Of a DNA stretch of 64,000 bases, positions 6,619 through 42,380 are shown in pieces (positions within the stretch are counted from its first letter, which is position 1; each line of letters starts with the position of its first letter). Origin of the DNA: Clostridium jeddahitimonense (lineage in GTDB: Bacteria; Bacillota; Clostridia; Clostridiales; Clostridiaceae); the NCBI GenBank assembly GCA_000753455.2, contig LM994669.1:474-64473 (forward strand). The letters are read 5' to 3'. The position numbers were made by a program, and so were the translations under genes. Under the pieces are notes generated by a model. It was not told where the DNA came from. It did not search any database and saw only the letters and a list, made by a program, of their open reading frames with translations.

Positions 6619-6709
6619 GGAGAGATGGTCGAGTTGGTTTAAGGCACCGGTCTTGAAAACCGGCGTGCGTGTGAGCGTACCGTGGGTTCGAATCCCACTC
6701 TCTCCGCCA
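6619..6709 (+). tRNA. tRNA-Ser(TGA), copy 1
   Basis: A 91-nt class II tRNA with a long variable arm (GTGCGTGTGAGCGTAC region), anticodon loop TCTTGAAAA (TGA), acceptor GGAGAGA/TCTCTCC, discriminator G and encoded CCA. It is identical base for base to the copy at 8024-8114. Confidence 0.97.
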
Positions 6710-8023: not shown

Positions 8024-8114
8024 GGAGAGATGGTCGAGTTGGTTTAAGGCACCGGTCTTGAAAACCGGCGTGCGTGTGAGCGTACCGTGGGTTCGAATCC
8101 CACTCTCTCCGCCA
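8024..8114 (+). tRNA. tRNA-Ser(TGA), copy 2
   Basis: 91 nt, identical in every base to the copy at 6619-6709, with anticodon TGA, a long variable arm and encoded GCCA. It is transcribed with tRNA-Ser(GCT), which starts 5 nt after it. Confidence 0.97.
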
Positions 8115-39243: not shown

Positions 39244-39843
39244 ATGAGGTATATTTTATTGGTATTGCTAGTATTAATAATTTTAATGATATTGTTTATA
39301 GCAACTATATTACTAATAATACAGCATTACGGAAAAAAATATATAATAGATGATTTATCTATATTAGCAAAATTAGATTCTGTAATTGTATTAGGAGCAG
39401 GAGTACGGCCAGATGGAAATCCATGTGATCTTTTAGCGGATAGAATTAAAATAGGGGTGGAAGTGTATTTAAATAATAAGTGCGATAATATTTTACTTAC
39501 AGGTGAAGAAAAAGATGAAACTTATAATGAAGTTTTAGTAATGAAGAGATGGATTAAGAAAAATTATGAGGAAATAGATACTGATGTAATATTGTTAGAT
39601 GGATTAGGGCTTTGCACATATGACAGTATGTATAGGGCAAGATATATTTTTAATATAAATAGCGCAATAATATCAACTAACAGATATCATTTACCAAGAG
39701 CAATCTATATTGCAAGAAGATTAGGAATAAAGGCATATGGAATACCATCAGATTTAAGACCATATGATAGAATGAAAAAATATAGAAGAAGAGAAATGTT
39801 AGCACAAATTAAGGATTTTTTATTAGTAAATATAAAAAAATAA
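39244..39843 (+). CDS. SanA/YdcF-like DUF218 membrane protein
   Basis: 199 residues. One N-terminal membrane helix (about 3-28), then a DUF218 domain with DSVIVLGAGVRPDGNP, LLTGEEKD and IISTNRYHLPRAIYIARRLG. Proteins of this type act at the envelope; E. coli SanA affects vancomycin sensitivity, but the reaction is unknown. ATG 39244 follows GGGAG at 5 nt; an upstream in-frame TTG at 39232 precedes that Shine-Dalgarno. Confidence 0.82.
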   Translation: MRYILLVLLVLIILMILFIATILLIIQHYGKKYIIDDLSILAKLDSVIVLGAGVRPDGNPCDLLADRIKIGVEVYLNNKCDNILLTGEEKDETYNEVLVMKRWIKKNYEEIDTDVILLDGLGLCTYDSMYRARYIFNINSAIISTNRYHLPRAIYIARRLGIKAYGIPSDLRPYDRMKKYRRREMLAQIKDFLLVNIKK

Positions 39844-39857
39844 AAAACATAAATAAA

Positions 39858-39887
39858 TTGTATAGATTGTAATTACAAGTAATACAA
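39858..39887. repeat. 30-bp palindrome, left copy (flank of the ParM-like module)
   Basis: TTGTATA, 2 nt, TTGT, 4 nt, ACAA, 2 nt, AATACAA: a nested dyad with one mismatch. The first 14 bases starting at 39857 (ATTGTATAGATTGT), and TACAAG three bases later, are identical to the copy at 41447-41469. A further AATACAA follows at 39890. Probable binding site for one of the module's small DNA-binding proteins. Confidence 0.7.
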
Positions 39888-39903
39888 ATAATACAAAAAT
39901 TAT

Positions 39904-39940
39904 AACAGCAACAGATGAGATTCACTCATCTGTTGCTGTT
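39904..39940 (-). terminator. Terminator embedded in the 3' end of the ParR-like gene
   Basis: AACAGCAACAGATGAG and CTCATCTGTTGCTGTT form a 16-bp perfect stem around a 5-nt loop. On the minus strand the last codons (Thr-Ala-Thr-Asp-Glu) are in the first arm, the TGA is in the loop, and a T-rich stretch follows after a few bases. Confidence 0.8.
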
Positions 39941-40203
39941 AATGATAATAGCCTGTCTAATTCATCGATTTGAAATTCATCAATTTCTGCTTTAGATTCG
40001 ATAGAAATATCTTCTATAGAGGGAGTAAAAGTATTTGAAGTCGACGAATTTACTGGGTTAATAATATTATAACCACGAAGTTTTTCTGCTATAAGAACTG
40101 TTATGTAAGCAGAAAAATCTAAACCTAAGCTTTCGGCTTCTTTAGATGCAAATTCTTTAATATGGCTAGATAAGGTGATCGTTGTTTTTATTTTCTTATG
40201 CAT
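39922..40203 (-). CDS. ParR-like DNA-binding adaptor
   Basis: 93 residues. The first 50 residues, KIKTTITLSSHIKEFASKEA and then LGLDFSAYITVLIAEKLRG, have the strand-helix-helix pattern of ribbon-helix-helix proteins. A Ser/Thr-rich linker is followed by an acidic tail (EIDEFQIDELDRLLSL), the part that in ParR-type adaptors touches the filament protein. The ATG at 40203 overlaps the actin-like gene by 8 nt, so the two are translated together. Assignment rests on fold pattern and context, not on clear sequence family. Confidence 0.62.
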   Translation of the reverse strand: MHKKIKTTITLSSHIKEFASKEAESLGLDFSAYITVLIAEKLRGYNIINPVNSSTSNTFTPSIEDISIESKAEIDEFQIDELDRLLSLTATDE

Positions 40204-41089
40204 TCTTAGTTCGTCCTATAATATCATAAGTTTTTACGTTAATCATTTGAGCATCATCAAGAACTTTATAATCAGATAAATAATCCTTTAGTAAAAGTGA
40301 TCCACCACCAATAAAAAGCCAGCGAGAGTATTTAGATTGTTCAGGAAAAGATTGTTTTATAGAGTTTATAATTTCTTTAGCTTTAAAGCTTAAAATACTA
40401 CTTATATCCCTAGTAATGTCTATTTCTTTTCCTTCAACATAAACACAATGATCATCAATTAATTCTTGGGCTTTCATACGATTAGAGTAGTTAATTCCAT
40501 ACTTAGATAGTGTTTGAAGTAACGTATCATACATACTGTTAACTCCAATAGGGTAAGTTTTTGCTTCTTTAAACTGACCTTGACTCATATAAGTAATATC
40601 AACAGTACCGCCACCAATGTCCACAACTAAGGTATCCTTTTCTACTAATGATTTATCATACAAAAATAAGCCTGCAGACTGAGGGAAGACTATAACATTA
40701 GTTATAGTAAAGCTTTTGAATTTACCATTAATTTTAAGAGCTACTTGTCTATCTTTTAAAGCTCTTATTAAAGGGAGCTTTTGCTCTGCAAAAAATTGAG
40801 CAGGTAATCCAGTAATTAACCTAACATTGTTATCTATTGTACTGTGCATAGAAGCAGCAATAGCAGTATATAAGCATAGATGGAAGATAGCATCTTTATC
40901 TCTAGATTGTTCAGTGCTGGTAAAACCATCAGTATTTCCTATTAAGTAAGTTTTATTATTATATTCTACTATATATTTAGCTGTTTCTAATTCATGAGTT
41001 TGTTCTTTTATGGTTGAAAGGAAAGAGCCTTCCATATCCTCGCCTATGAAGTTAGTAGTATTGTATCCAATATCGGCGCTGATTCTCAT
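40196..41089 (-). CDS. ParM-type actin-like ATPase
   Basis: 297 residues. Actin/Hsp70-fold nucleotide motifs are visible: phosphate-1 ADIGYNTT at 5-12, phosphate-2 VVDIGGGTVDIT at 155-166, and the adenosine loop FIGGGSLLL near 259-267. LITGLPAQFF near 92-101 is typical of ParM/StbA relatives. Such proteins form filaments that push plasmid copies apart through an adaptor bound to a centromere. ATG 41089 fits the partial Shine-Dalgarno AGGATGTGAT; an in-frame GTG at 41098 abuts it. The 11-bp repeats upstream and overlapping ParR-like gene downstream support a complete segregation cassette on a chromosome. Confidence 0.82.
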   Translation of the reverse strand: MRISADIGYNTTNFIGEDMEGSFLSTIKEQTHELETAKYIVEYNNKTYLIGNTDGFTSTEQSRDKDAIFHLCLYTAIAASMHSTIDNNVRLITGLPAQFFAEQKLPLIRALKDRQVALKINGKFKSFTITNVIVFPQSAGLFLYDKSLVEKDTLVVDIGGGTVDITYMSQGQFKEAKTYPIGVNSMYDTLLQTLSKYGINYSNRMKAQELIDDHCVYVEGKEIDITRDISSILSFKAKEIINSIKQSFPEQSKYSRWLFIGGGSLLLKDYLSDYKVLDDAQMINVKTYDIIGRTKNA

Positions 41090-41117
41090 TTTTATCACAT
41101 CCTTTTATATTCTTTTT

Positions 41118-41150
41118 TATGGTGAATGTATGGTGATTATACATAAGTAT
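41118..41150. repeat. 11-bp direct repeats, cluster 1 (candidate centromere half)
   Basis: Two adjacent units TATGGTGAATG (41118) and TATGGTGATTA (41129), then a weaker TACATAAGTAT (41140), in exact 11-bp phase, 29 nt upstream of the actin-like gene. Confidence 0.7.
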
Positions 41151-41200
41151 ATTTTTTGCAATAAAAAAACTATATTTAAATAATAATTAGTCAAATTTTA

Positions 41201-41244
41201 TATGGCGATTATATGTTGATTGTATGATTCTTATATGCTTAGCC
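41201..41244. repeat. 11-bp direct repeats, cluster 2 (candidate centromere half)
   Basis: TATGGCGATTA (41201), TATGTTGATTG (41212), TATGATTCTTA (41223) and TATGCTTAGCC (41234) run in exact 11-bp phase; each begins TATG. The AT-rich 50 bp between the clusters holds a minus-strand TTGACT (41195-41190) that may be the cassette's -35. Two clusters of 11-bp repeats around a promoter is the layout of parC in plasmid R1. Confidence 0.72.
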
Positions 41245-41427
41245 ATCTTTAGAATTAAGCAAATCTAATGTAACTTCGGAATTTTGGTTAGTTTCGCTAT
41301 CGCTGATTGCTTTCATAAGGCTTAGAAGTGTAAATTCTGTTATTGTAAGTCCAAGCTTTCTAGCTGTACGTTTTATAGCTAATTTCTGCTCTGCCGTAAC
41401 ACGAAGCATTATTGTTGCATCTTTCAT
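41239..41427 (-). CDS. Small ribbon-helix-helix-like DNA-binding protein
   Basis: 62 residues from ATG 41427, which follows GGGGGGA; a longer in-frame extension of 30 residues has no Shine-Dalgarno. KDATIMLRVTAEQKLAIKRTARKLGLTITEFTLLSLMKA has the RHH/DUF1778-like pattern. It lies upstream of the actin-like gene on the same strand, separated by the 11-bp repeats. A perfect 30-bp palindrome covers its upstream region, suggesting autoregulation. Confidence 0.62.
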   Translation of the reverse strand: MKDATIMLRVTAEQKLAIKRTARKLGLTITEFTLLSLMKAISDSETNQNSEVTLDLLNSKDG

Positions 41428-41447
41428 AGAATCCCCCCCTGTATATA

Positions 41448-41477
41448 TTGTATAGATTGTCGGTACAAGATATACAA
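41448..41477. repeat. 30-bp palindrome, right copy (before the small RHH gene)
   Basis: TTGTATA, GA, TTGT, CGGT, ACAA, GA, TATACAA: a perfect nested dyad 21 nt upstream of the ATG at 41427. It shares ATTGTATAGATTGT-N3-TACAAG with the left copy near 39857, in the same orientation, so the two bound a unit of about 1.6 kb. Confidence 0.75.
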
Positions 41478-41606
41478 TAACATAACTAATACTGAAAAAA
41501 ATGTAATAATATGGCATATAATTTAAATAAAATATCGACTATTTTCGTGAATACTACTATGTATTATTAGGTGATATAATAATTTTATAAGGTTTGGAGG
41601 AAGAGT

Positions 41607-42380
41607 ATGGATAATAATTATGTTTTAATTACAGGTGCATCCAGTGGAATTGGATTTGAGTTAGCAAAGCTTTTTAAAAGAGATGGACACAATTTAATAT
41701 TGGTAGCAAGGGATAAAGAGAAGCTGAAGAATGCTACAGATAAATTAAATAATAAAAAAAATAAAATTATTATGTTAGATATTGATTTATCTAAAGAAGA
41801 AGAAATTAATAAACTTATTAATTATATTGATGATAATGAAATTAAGGTTAATATCTTAGTTAATAATGCAGGGATAGGATCATTTGGAAATTTTACAGAA
41901 GTAGATTGGAATATAGAAGAGAAATTAATAGATATAAACATAAAGGCATTAACTAGATTAACTAAATATTTTTTACCAAAGATGATAGAGAACAAATCAG
42001 GAGGAATATTAAATGTTGCATCTACAGCAGCTTTTGCATCAGGACCTAAAATGGCTACTTATTATGCATCTAAAGCTTATGTATTAAACCTTACTGAAGC
42101 AATTCATGAAGAGTTAAGAGCGTTCGGAGTAAAGATATCTTGTCTTTGTCCAGGACCTGTTAGAACTAGTTTTCAAAGTAAGGCTGGAATAAACAAATCA
42201 GAAAAGGCTAAGAAATATCTTATGGATGCTGATATTGTAGCTAAAGTAGGTTATGAAGAATTTAAAAAGGGAAAAGTTATTATAATTCCTGGATTTAAAA
42301 ATAAAATATTAGTAAAGGCAAATAGGTTATTACCAAGAGCTATAAGTAGAAAGATTATTTTAAAAACTAATAAGAAGTAG
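41607..42380 (+). CDS. Short-chain dehydrogenase/reductase
   Basis: 257 residues. The cofactor motif TGASSGIGFELA lies at 8-19, NNAGIGSFG near 90, and the catalytic Ser...Tyr-x-x-x-Lys reads VASTAAF and YYASKAYV. Likely NADP-dependent (Arg after the second strand, VARD). Substrate unknown. ATG 41607 follows GGAGGAAG. The EFR1 gene starts 10 nt later in the same direction. Confidence 0.88.
   Translation: MDNNYVLITGASSGIGFELAKLFKRDGHNLILVARDKEKLKNATDKLNNKKNKIIMLDIDLSKEEEINKLINYIDDNEIKVNILVNNAGIGSFGNFTEVDWNIEEKLIDINIKALTRLTKYFLPKMIENKSGGILNVASTAAFASGPKMATYYASKAYVLNLTEAIHEELRAFGVKISCLCPGPVRTSFQSKAGINKSEKAKKYLMDADIVAKVGYEEFKKGKVIIIPGFKNKILVKANRLLPRAISRKIILKTNKK

Follow-up and report, generated by a model that had tools for sequence, protein, structure and literature searches.

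A three-gene cassette on the minus strand of a 64,000-nucleotide stretch of Clostridium jeddahitimonense (contig LM994669.1; hereafter the window, in which all coordinates are positions) probably encodes a chromosomal ParM/ParR/parC-type system that acts on the origin region of the chromosome. The genes run in the order ribbon-helix-helix (RHH) gene, parM, parR, with two arrays of 11-bp repeats in front of parM. Both parM and parR are on the chromosome and not on a plasmid. As judged from the position of the cassette and from further copies of its DNA site in related species, the system is likely to take part in moving the chromosome's own origin region or in holding it.

A ParM at ≥74% identity is present in 12 of the 68 genomes of the genus, the window genome included, and a family-wide search found such a ParM in 12 of 206 genomes, all within the genus. 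The carriers are the window genome and 11 genomes of the C. beijerinckii group (the relatives, below). A search for the same cassette elsewhere, proposed in an earlier note made from the window's letters, thus found both the three-gene order and the DNA site in all 12. Five carriers are complete (G002, G012, G013, G021, and G022), each with dnaA opening the contig, and in all five the cassette site lies 105–233 kb to the left of dnaA. Contig C7 carries the dnaA of the window genome; the window contig (C8) is colinear with the region +15 to +137 kb to the right of dnaA in G013, and the cassette sits between the orthologues of G013 genes at +36.5 kb (proA) and +38.7 kb (SDR). We estimate that it lies at roughly +40 to +56 kb from dnaA, allowing for the contig gap. 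Since the relatives carry it on the left arm and the window genome on the right, the cassette occupies two origin-proximal places on opposite arms, and it is origin-proximal in all six genomes in which it can be placed (five directly, that of the window by synteny). Nine of the 11 relatives share the right neighbors of the cassette. The window flanks, as read, contain no replication, conjugation, phage or mobility gene, in keeping with the chromosomal module described in the earlier note. The record of the window genome carries a contamination estimate of 6.19%; the window contig is nonetheless colinear with the origin region of a relative.

The relatives also carry copies of the site away from the cassette. 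A scan of six genomes with the core pattern RTATAANYRCCATA, which is unspecific (7–13 matches per genome) and was used as a lead only, gave cores far from parM. Of three such places that were read, those taken as sites, in G002 and G012, are full copies, palindrome included, without par genes. The third, at 4,513.8 kb in G002, was rejected because it has no palindrome and precedes a regulator gene. Two profiles were then used. Profile R1 was trained on nine cassette sites and no orphan site, and was run on the 68 genomes with strict filters and 48 candidates scored per genome, so its counts are lower bounds. Profile R2 was trained on 25 sites, orphans included, and was run with looser filters on 12 genomes: the five complete cassette genomes, six cassette-less controls, and the window genome. 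The window site was left out of both because the first alignment had shifted it by one unit.

At E ≤ 0.01, R1 gave at least 38 matches. The 11 relatives with the cassette account for 36; the other two, in genomes that lack it, are weak (E 0.0024 and 0.0084), and the window genome gave none. At E ≤ 2e-8 there were at least 32, namely the 11 cassette sites and 21 others (one to three extra per relative genome), and no match of this strength was found in any of the 56 cassette-less genomes. None of the 21 extra sites overlaps an open reading frame (ORF) of ≥80 residues. For 18 of them, the 1.5 kb around the site is free of par genes; the other three (in G021, G007, and G046) adjoin their own cassette. 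The whole element of about 210 bp, that is, the palindrome and both arrays, is kept at the extra sites. In 19 of them, near-duplicates included, 11 is the dominant period, with a lag-11 score of 109 against 18.9 ± 8.2 in 100 shuffles (largest shuffle value at any lag, 53).

Profile R2 gave 15 matches at E ≤ 4.4e-15 in the five complete cassette genomes and nothing else below 0.03, controls and window genome included. All 15 strong sites, cassette sites among them, lie within 235 kb of dnaA, and the ten extra ones all lie within 200 kb of it, on both arms (−199.5, −182.8, −165.9, −155.3, −151.4, −145.0, −119.8, −100.4, +96.6, and +98.9 kb). By their neighbors these ten represent eight distinct loci, two of which are shared by G002 and G013; the right-arm locus (+97 to +99 kb in those two genomes) recurs in G030 and probably, with fewer neighbors, in G048. 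By simple arithmetic, a place picked at random has a chance of about 0.07 of being ≤200 kb from the origin, and eight distinct origin-near loci would be far from chance if they are independent. In the five complete genomes the set of cognate sites predicted by the profiles is confined to the origin region, a parS-like layout for an actin-type system. The positioning of origin-proximal DNA, one of the roles suggested in the earlier note, fits both the location of the cassette and these extra sites.

The two clusters of 11-bp repeats reported for the window are real. On the minus strand, the distal units read, from 41237 down to 41194, CATATAAGAAT, CATACAATCAA, CATATAATCGC, and CATATAAAATT, and the proximal units, from 41143 down to 41111, TGTATAATCAC, CATACATTCAC, and CATAAAAAAGA; the four and three units keep exact 11-bp phase. 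When the gap between the RHH gene and parM was shuffled 300 times with dinucleotides kept, its lag-11 self-similarity was never reached (p 0.003; p 0.01 over lags 8–30). The exact two-unit pattern CATAYAANNNNCATAYAA occurs three times in the 4.08-Mb window genome, each time at the cassette, and its 21 one-mismatch matches equal the rate of a reversed control (23). A weight matrix trained only on the proximal sites of the 11 relatives, with the window species left out, ranks the window arrays 1, 2, and 4 of 39,960 positions, and the distal array is shorter by exactly 11 bp in two of nine aligned relatives' sites. These ranks and the variation by exact units indicate that the repeats are conserved in other copies of the cassette, a check on which the earlier reading could have failed. 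The arrays keep their position in front of parM, and we predict that they are centromere-like phased iterons. The promoter that had been placed between the two clusters was not supported, as a scan of 39800–41700 was at chance level (13 found, 12.3 expected). No Rfam family was matched.

The parM and parR-like genes overlap by 8 nt (40196–40203), as the ORF check confirmed. Starts were set by conservation, with the ATG of ParM at 41089 and that of the RHH protein at 41427 (lengths in Table 1). The ParM-like protein scores above the cut-off of the Pfam actin-like ParM models, its predicted structure superposes on solved ParMs across 278–293 residues and has fold similarity to CorM, and residues D6, G8, D157, G159, G160, T162, and G261–G263 are invariant in all 32 aligned sequences. 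Structure prediction, as proposed in the earlier note, thus gives the ATPase an actin-like ParM-type fold with nucleotide-binding motifs. For the ParR-like protein the model suggests an RHH domain, a disordered linker and a C-terminal helix (mean predicted local distance difference test score 68), and Foldseek returned weak matches (best CopG, E 0.38), with known plasmid ParR folds absent among those listed. Its C-terminal stretch is conserved and all 11 relatives have an orthologue. The second RHH-like gene was also borne out, its product scoring just at the Pfam cut-offs (NikA-like, 27.0 bits against 27; TacA1, 21.1 against 21) and having an orthologue of 59–66 residues in all 11 relatives. 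No ParABS-type match was obtained for the cassette proteins in comparisons with ParA and ParB; the models matched were actin-like and RHH. A match to an anti-phage defense system was not found either, PADLOC returning no family for any of the three proteins at E ≤ 1.

Two pairs of ParM genes from the relatives have nonsynonymous over synonymous divergences (dN/dS) of 0.003/0.085 and 0.009/0.325, that is, near 0.03; ParR evolves faster than ParM. These ratios point to strong purifying selection on the ParM of the relatives, which disfavors the silent element that the earlier note had offered as another option. Of the 68 genomes, 52 were placed in a DnaA tree (the 16 without a fetched locus were left out). 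It puts 11 of the 12 carriers in one clade of 17 and the window genome as sole carrier in a group of 22. On this tree the phyletic pattern needs six label changes, at least three of them forced by starred branches. For the window genome, the distance ratio of ParM to DnaA (mean 1.82) is inside the range within the relatives' clade (0.70–3.24), so old vertical descent with losses explains the cassette as well as a recent horizontal gain would. The phyletic pattern and the changed position are compatible with both.

The equivalent of the window locus was examined in 15 cassette-less relatives, and ParM was found there in none. Five have a YdcF-like gene upstream of the SDR gene, with an interval of 176 bp in one, 0.6 and 1.2 kb of other sequence in two, and a GNAT gene in two; in the other ten no YdcF-like gene was found within the 1.5-kb flank. 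The YdcF-SDR gap, which contains the cassette in the window genome and other small sequence (1.2 and 0.6 kb) in G005 and G009 (L166, L171), appears to be a spot of changing content. The exact insertion point in the window genome is not resolvable, as the relatives are too divergent.

Outside the chromosome, the relatives of ParM that were found are distant. A plasmid collection gave matches in 36 of 72,556 records, all below 60% identity (24–28% among the 25 matches listed), a phage collection gave five in 50,697 (22–28%), and IMG/VR gave 59 loci (best, 39%); no ParM relative above 39% identity was found in the plasmid (among the matches listed), phage and viral collections. A protein search returned 134 proteins, some at 46–50% among the 120 listed; among ParR clusters at 77–95% is one of C. 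disporicum. Within the genus, the closest extrachromosomal relatives encountered lie on phage-plasmid-like contigs of 37.7 and 38.6 kb (G023:C32, 37%; G064:C30, 36%; L147–L150), which are circular, as their ends overlap. G023:C32 has a portal protein and a GH25 lysin by Pfam, its other phage functions being assigned by reading only. Both contigs resemble the cassette in having parM followed by a small gene, but they carry phage genes, their parM diverges from a helix-turn-helix gene, and they have no RHH-parM-parR triple. That the cassette is plasmid-derived, as the earlier note suggested, is plausible only; the nearest extrachromosomal relatives encountered are on these phage-plasmid-like contigs.

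Several observations weigh against a function at the origin. The cassette is missing from six of the 17 members of the relatives' clade and is therefore dispensable. Next to dnaA, the window genome encodes ParA and ParB as well as a further protein of ParB type (Noc-like), so an actin-type system would be auxiliary, a role that agrees with the absence of the cassette from those six members. In the window genome no extra site was found with R1, R2 or the pattern scans, and both profiles score even its own site poorly; a single site, and no origin-clustered set of them, was found there. Three extra sites in G056 are not placeable relative to dnaA, and weaker R1 matches in cassette-bearing relatives are unplaced (G056:C39:22881, G007:C10:59250, and G003:C18:43082; E 5e-5 to 0.002). 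Tested singly, none of the cassette sites of the 11 relatives has a significant lag-11 signal (p 0.09–1.0), and their pooled score of 43 is below the largest any-lag shuffle value of 54; the case for iterons in the relatives therefore rests on the matrix and the orphan sites. Two further points, the placement of some extra sites before genes and the closeness of the left-arm sites to the cassette, are best weighed with the explanations that they favor.

Several extra sites, such as G002_a, G012_a, G012_b, G022_a, G007_b, and G030_a, are followed at 90–200 bp by a gene of the same orientation and could be operators. The cassette might then be a transcription-regulatory module, in which ParR or the RHH protein is a repressor, the dispersed sites serve a small regulon, and ParM is autoregulated; plasmid ParR proteins also act as repressors of their own promoter. 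We consider this unlikely, because sites G002_R, G013_R, and G030_b lie between convergent genes, the genes beside the sites differ between loci, the full element of about 210 bp is kept and exceeds the needs of an operator, and a regulon has no need of origin proximity. The left-arm extra sites, for their part, are all ≤51 kb from the cassette, so the seven left-arm loci, though not the right-arm one, could have arisen by local duplication without any origin function. Together with the circular contigs described above, this would suit a cassette that is a plasmid or phage-plasmid relic, a mere passenger from such an element, or a decoy against the incompatibility of such elements; the extra sites would then be debris or a small intergenic repeat that was duplicated locally. 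We consider such a status of the present-day cassette unlikely, given that no replication, phage or mobility gene was seen beside it, that the dN/dS of ParM is so low in the relatives, that nine of these share its right neighbors, and that 18 of the 21 sites have no par gene nearby. The right-arm locus is moreover across the origin in G002 and G013, also in G030 and probably in G048, and the extrachromosomal relatives have diverged too far to make obvious targets of incompatibility.

It is very unlikely that the cassette encodes a ParM-derived cytoskeleton with a job unrelated to DNA, like that of FcmB/FcmC of filamentous cyanobacteria, since the DNA site stays with the cassette in all 12 genomes and is multiplied around the origin in the relatives. 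FcmB/FcmC of Nostoc punctiforme (PMC12645912) and CorM/CorR of Anabaena (PDB 9rmi) are likewise chromosomal actin-like proteins of plasmid-partition lineage with a partner protein, according to the available parts of those sources. FcmB differs in its role in cell shape and its membrane-bound filaments, and the available part of the paper describes no kept DNA site (PMC12645912).

An actin-type system acting on the origin region, the reading that we prefer, can be set beside several known systems. ParABS with dispersed parS sites is similar in having several sites near the chromosome origin, on both arms in some species. It differs in using a Walker ATPase and ParB, with a 16-bp palindrome as its parS site, whereas the cassette has an actin-type ATPase, an RHH adaptor and an iteron site of about 210 bp. 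From ParMRC of plasmid R1 the cassette differs in being chromosomal, in its extra RHH gene and in the further sites of the relatives, and a promoter between the clusters is unsupported. Chromosomal ParMs with ParR and a bound cparC have already been published (PMC12270681, JBC 2025); in the part of that paper available, ParCMR is described as not yet implicated in chromosome segregation, with no conserved cparC identified among strains (PMC12270681). By structural alignment, the window ParM has about 24% identity to that of Cb-cParCMR of Clostridium botulinum (Cbc-ParM, PDB 7x54) and about 17% to Dh-cParM1 of Desulfitobacterium (PDB 8x1i). The same part of the paper describes for these systems neither a second RHH gene, such as the window cassette has, nor origin-dispersed sites (PMC12270681). 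A C. butyricum megaplasmid with parM is mentioned in the accessible part of another report (PMC12342839). In the open-license literature searched, we found no paper on a chromosomal C. beijerinckii ParM or on dispersed parC sites, and the iterons conserved across species, the third (RHH) gene and the origin-clustered extra sites, none of them met in our searches, are apparently new.

Table 1. Features of the cassette and its surroundings in the window.
Feature	Position	Strand	Basis
RHH gene, 62 residues (NikA-like/TacA1-like)	41239..41427	-	Pfam; orthologues in relatives
parM-like actin-type ATPase gene, 297 residues	40196..41089	-	ParM family models; predicted fold
parR-like gene, 93 residues (RHH, disordered linker, C-terminal helix)	39922..40203	-	Overlap with parM; structure model; orthologues
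Distal array, four 11-bp units, part of predicted parC-like site	41194..41237	-	Self-similarity; matrix; genome uniqueness
Proximal array, three 11-bp units, part of predicted parC-like site	41111..41143	-	Self-similarity; alignment; matrix
Near-palindrome site A in front of RHH gene, predicted operator	41448..41477	.	12/12 copies
Near-palindrome site C downstream of parR	39858..39887	.	Shares 13-bp left arm with site A
ACGAAAnnAGTCGA block upstream of RHH gene/promoter region	41535..41548	-	Alignment; conserved in 12/12 copies
Terminator-like hairpin after parR	39903..39941	-	17-bp perfect stem and T tail; 1 found, 0.6 expected

Sites A and C, of the form TTGTATAnnnTGT-N4-ACAnnnTATACAA, bracket the window cassette. 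Site A is present in every copy at a total mismatch of ≤5 and its exact core occurs only twice in its own genome; similar sites are found at the place of site C in G046 and G021, and a palindrome of the same kind also adjoins many orphan sites. An att- or dif-like reading of the bracketing palindromes was set aside, because in all 11 relatives such a palindrome stands within the cassette itself, after the RHH gene and before the iterons; this better suits an operator, or a component of the site. The ACGAAAnnAGTCGA block, which we take to resemble two Spo0A-like boxes 10 bp apart, falls just outside the feature as originally delimited (39857..41478). Elsewhere in the window there are two tRNA-Ser(TGA) genes (6619–6709 and 8024–8114), 1.4 kb apart.

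We infer from these arrangements that ParR binds the iterons and that the RHH protein controls the operon by way of the palindromes, to which it would bind. ParR-like dimers would line up on the 11-bp units, each of which spans about one turn of the helix, and would hold the ends of ParM filaments, which could push, pull or hold the origin region, and the 62-residue RHH protein would bind the palindrome before its own gene and repress the operon. In the relatives, several ParR-loaded sites around oriC would amount to several filament handles on the origin domain. The longer single array of the window species would act from one point, some 50 kb from dnaA by our estimate, and the filaments would act on sister origins beside ParABS. 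We give about even chances to the full form of this proposal, namely a second segregation machine in which ParR loads on several sites near oriC, on either arm, and ParM filaments act alongside ParABS to separate sister origins or to anchor them; the window species would have a compact version of it with one site, on the opposite arm.

Filaments of ParM are the textbook example of a motor that pushes plasmids, and a job at the chromosome origin has not yet been shown for plasmid-type ParM machinery. If our reading is true, no centromere array of the actin type would have been described before on a bacterial chromosome. The set of sites around the origin, which is absent from cassette-less relatives, gives coordinates for chromatin immunoprecipitation and for origin tags, and laboratory and industrial strains of the C. 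beijerinckii group exist. It also suggests how a chromosome can take over a partition module of a plasmid or phage-plasmid.

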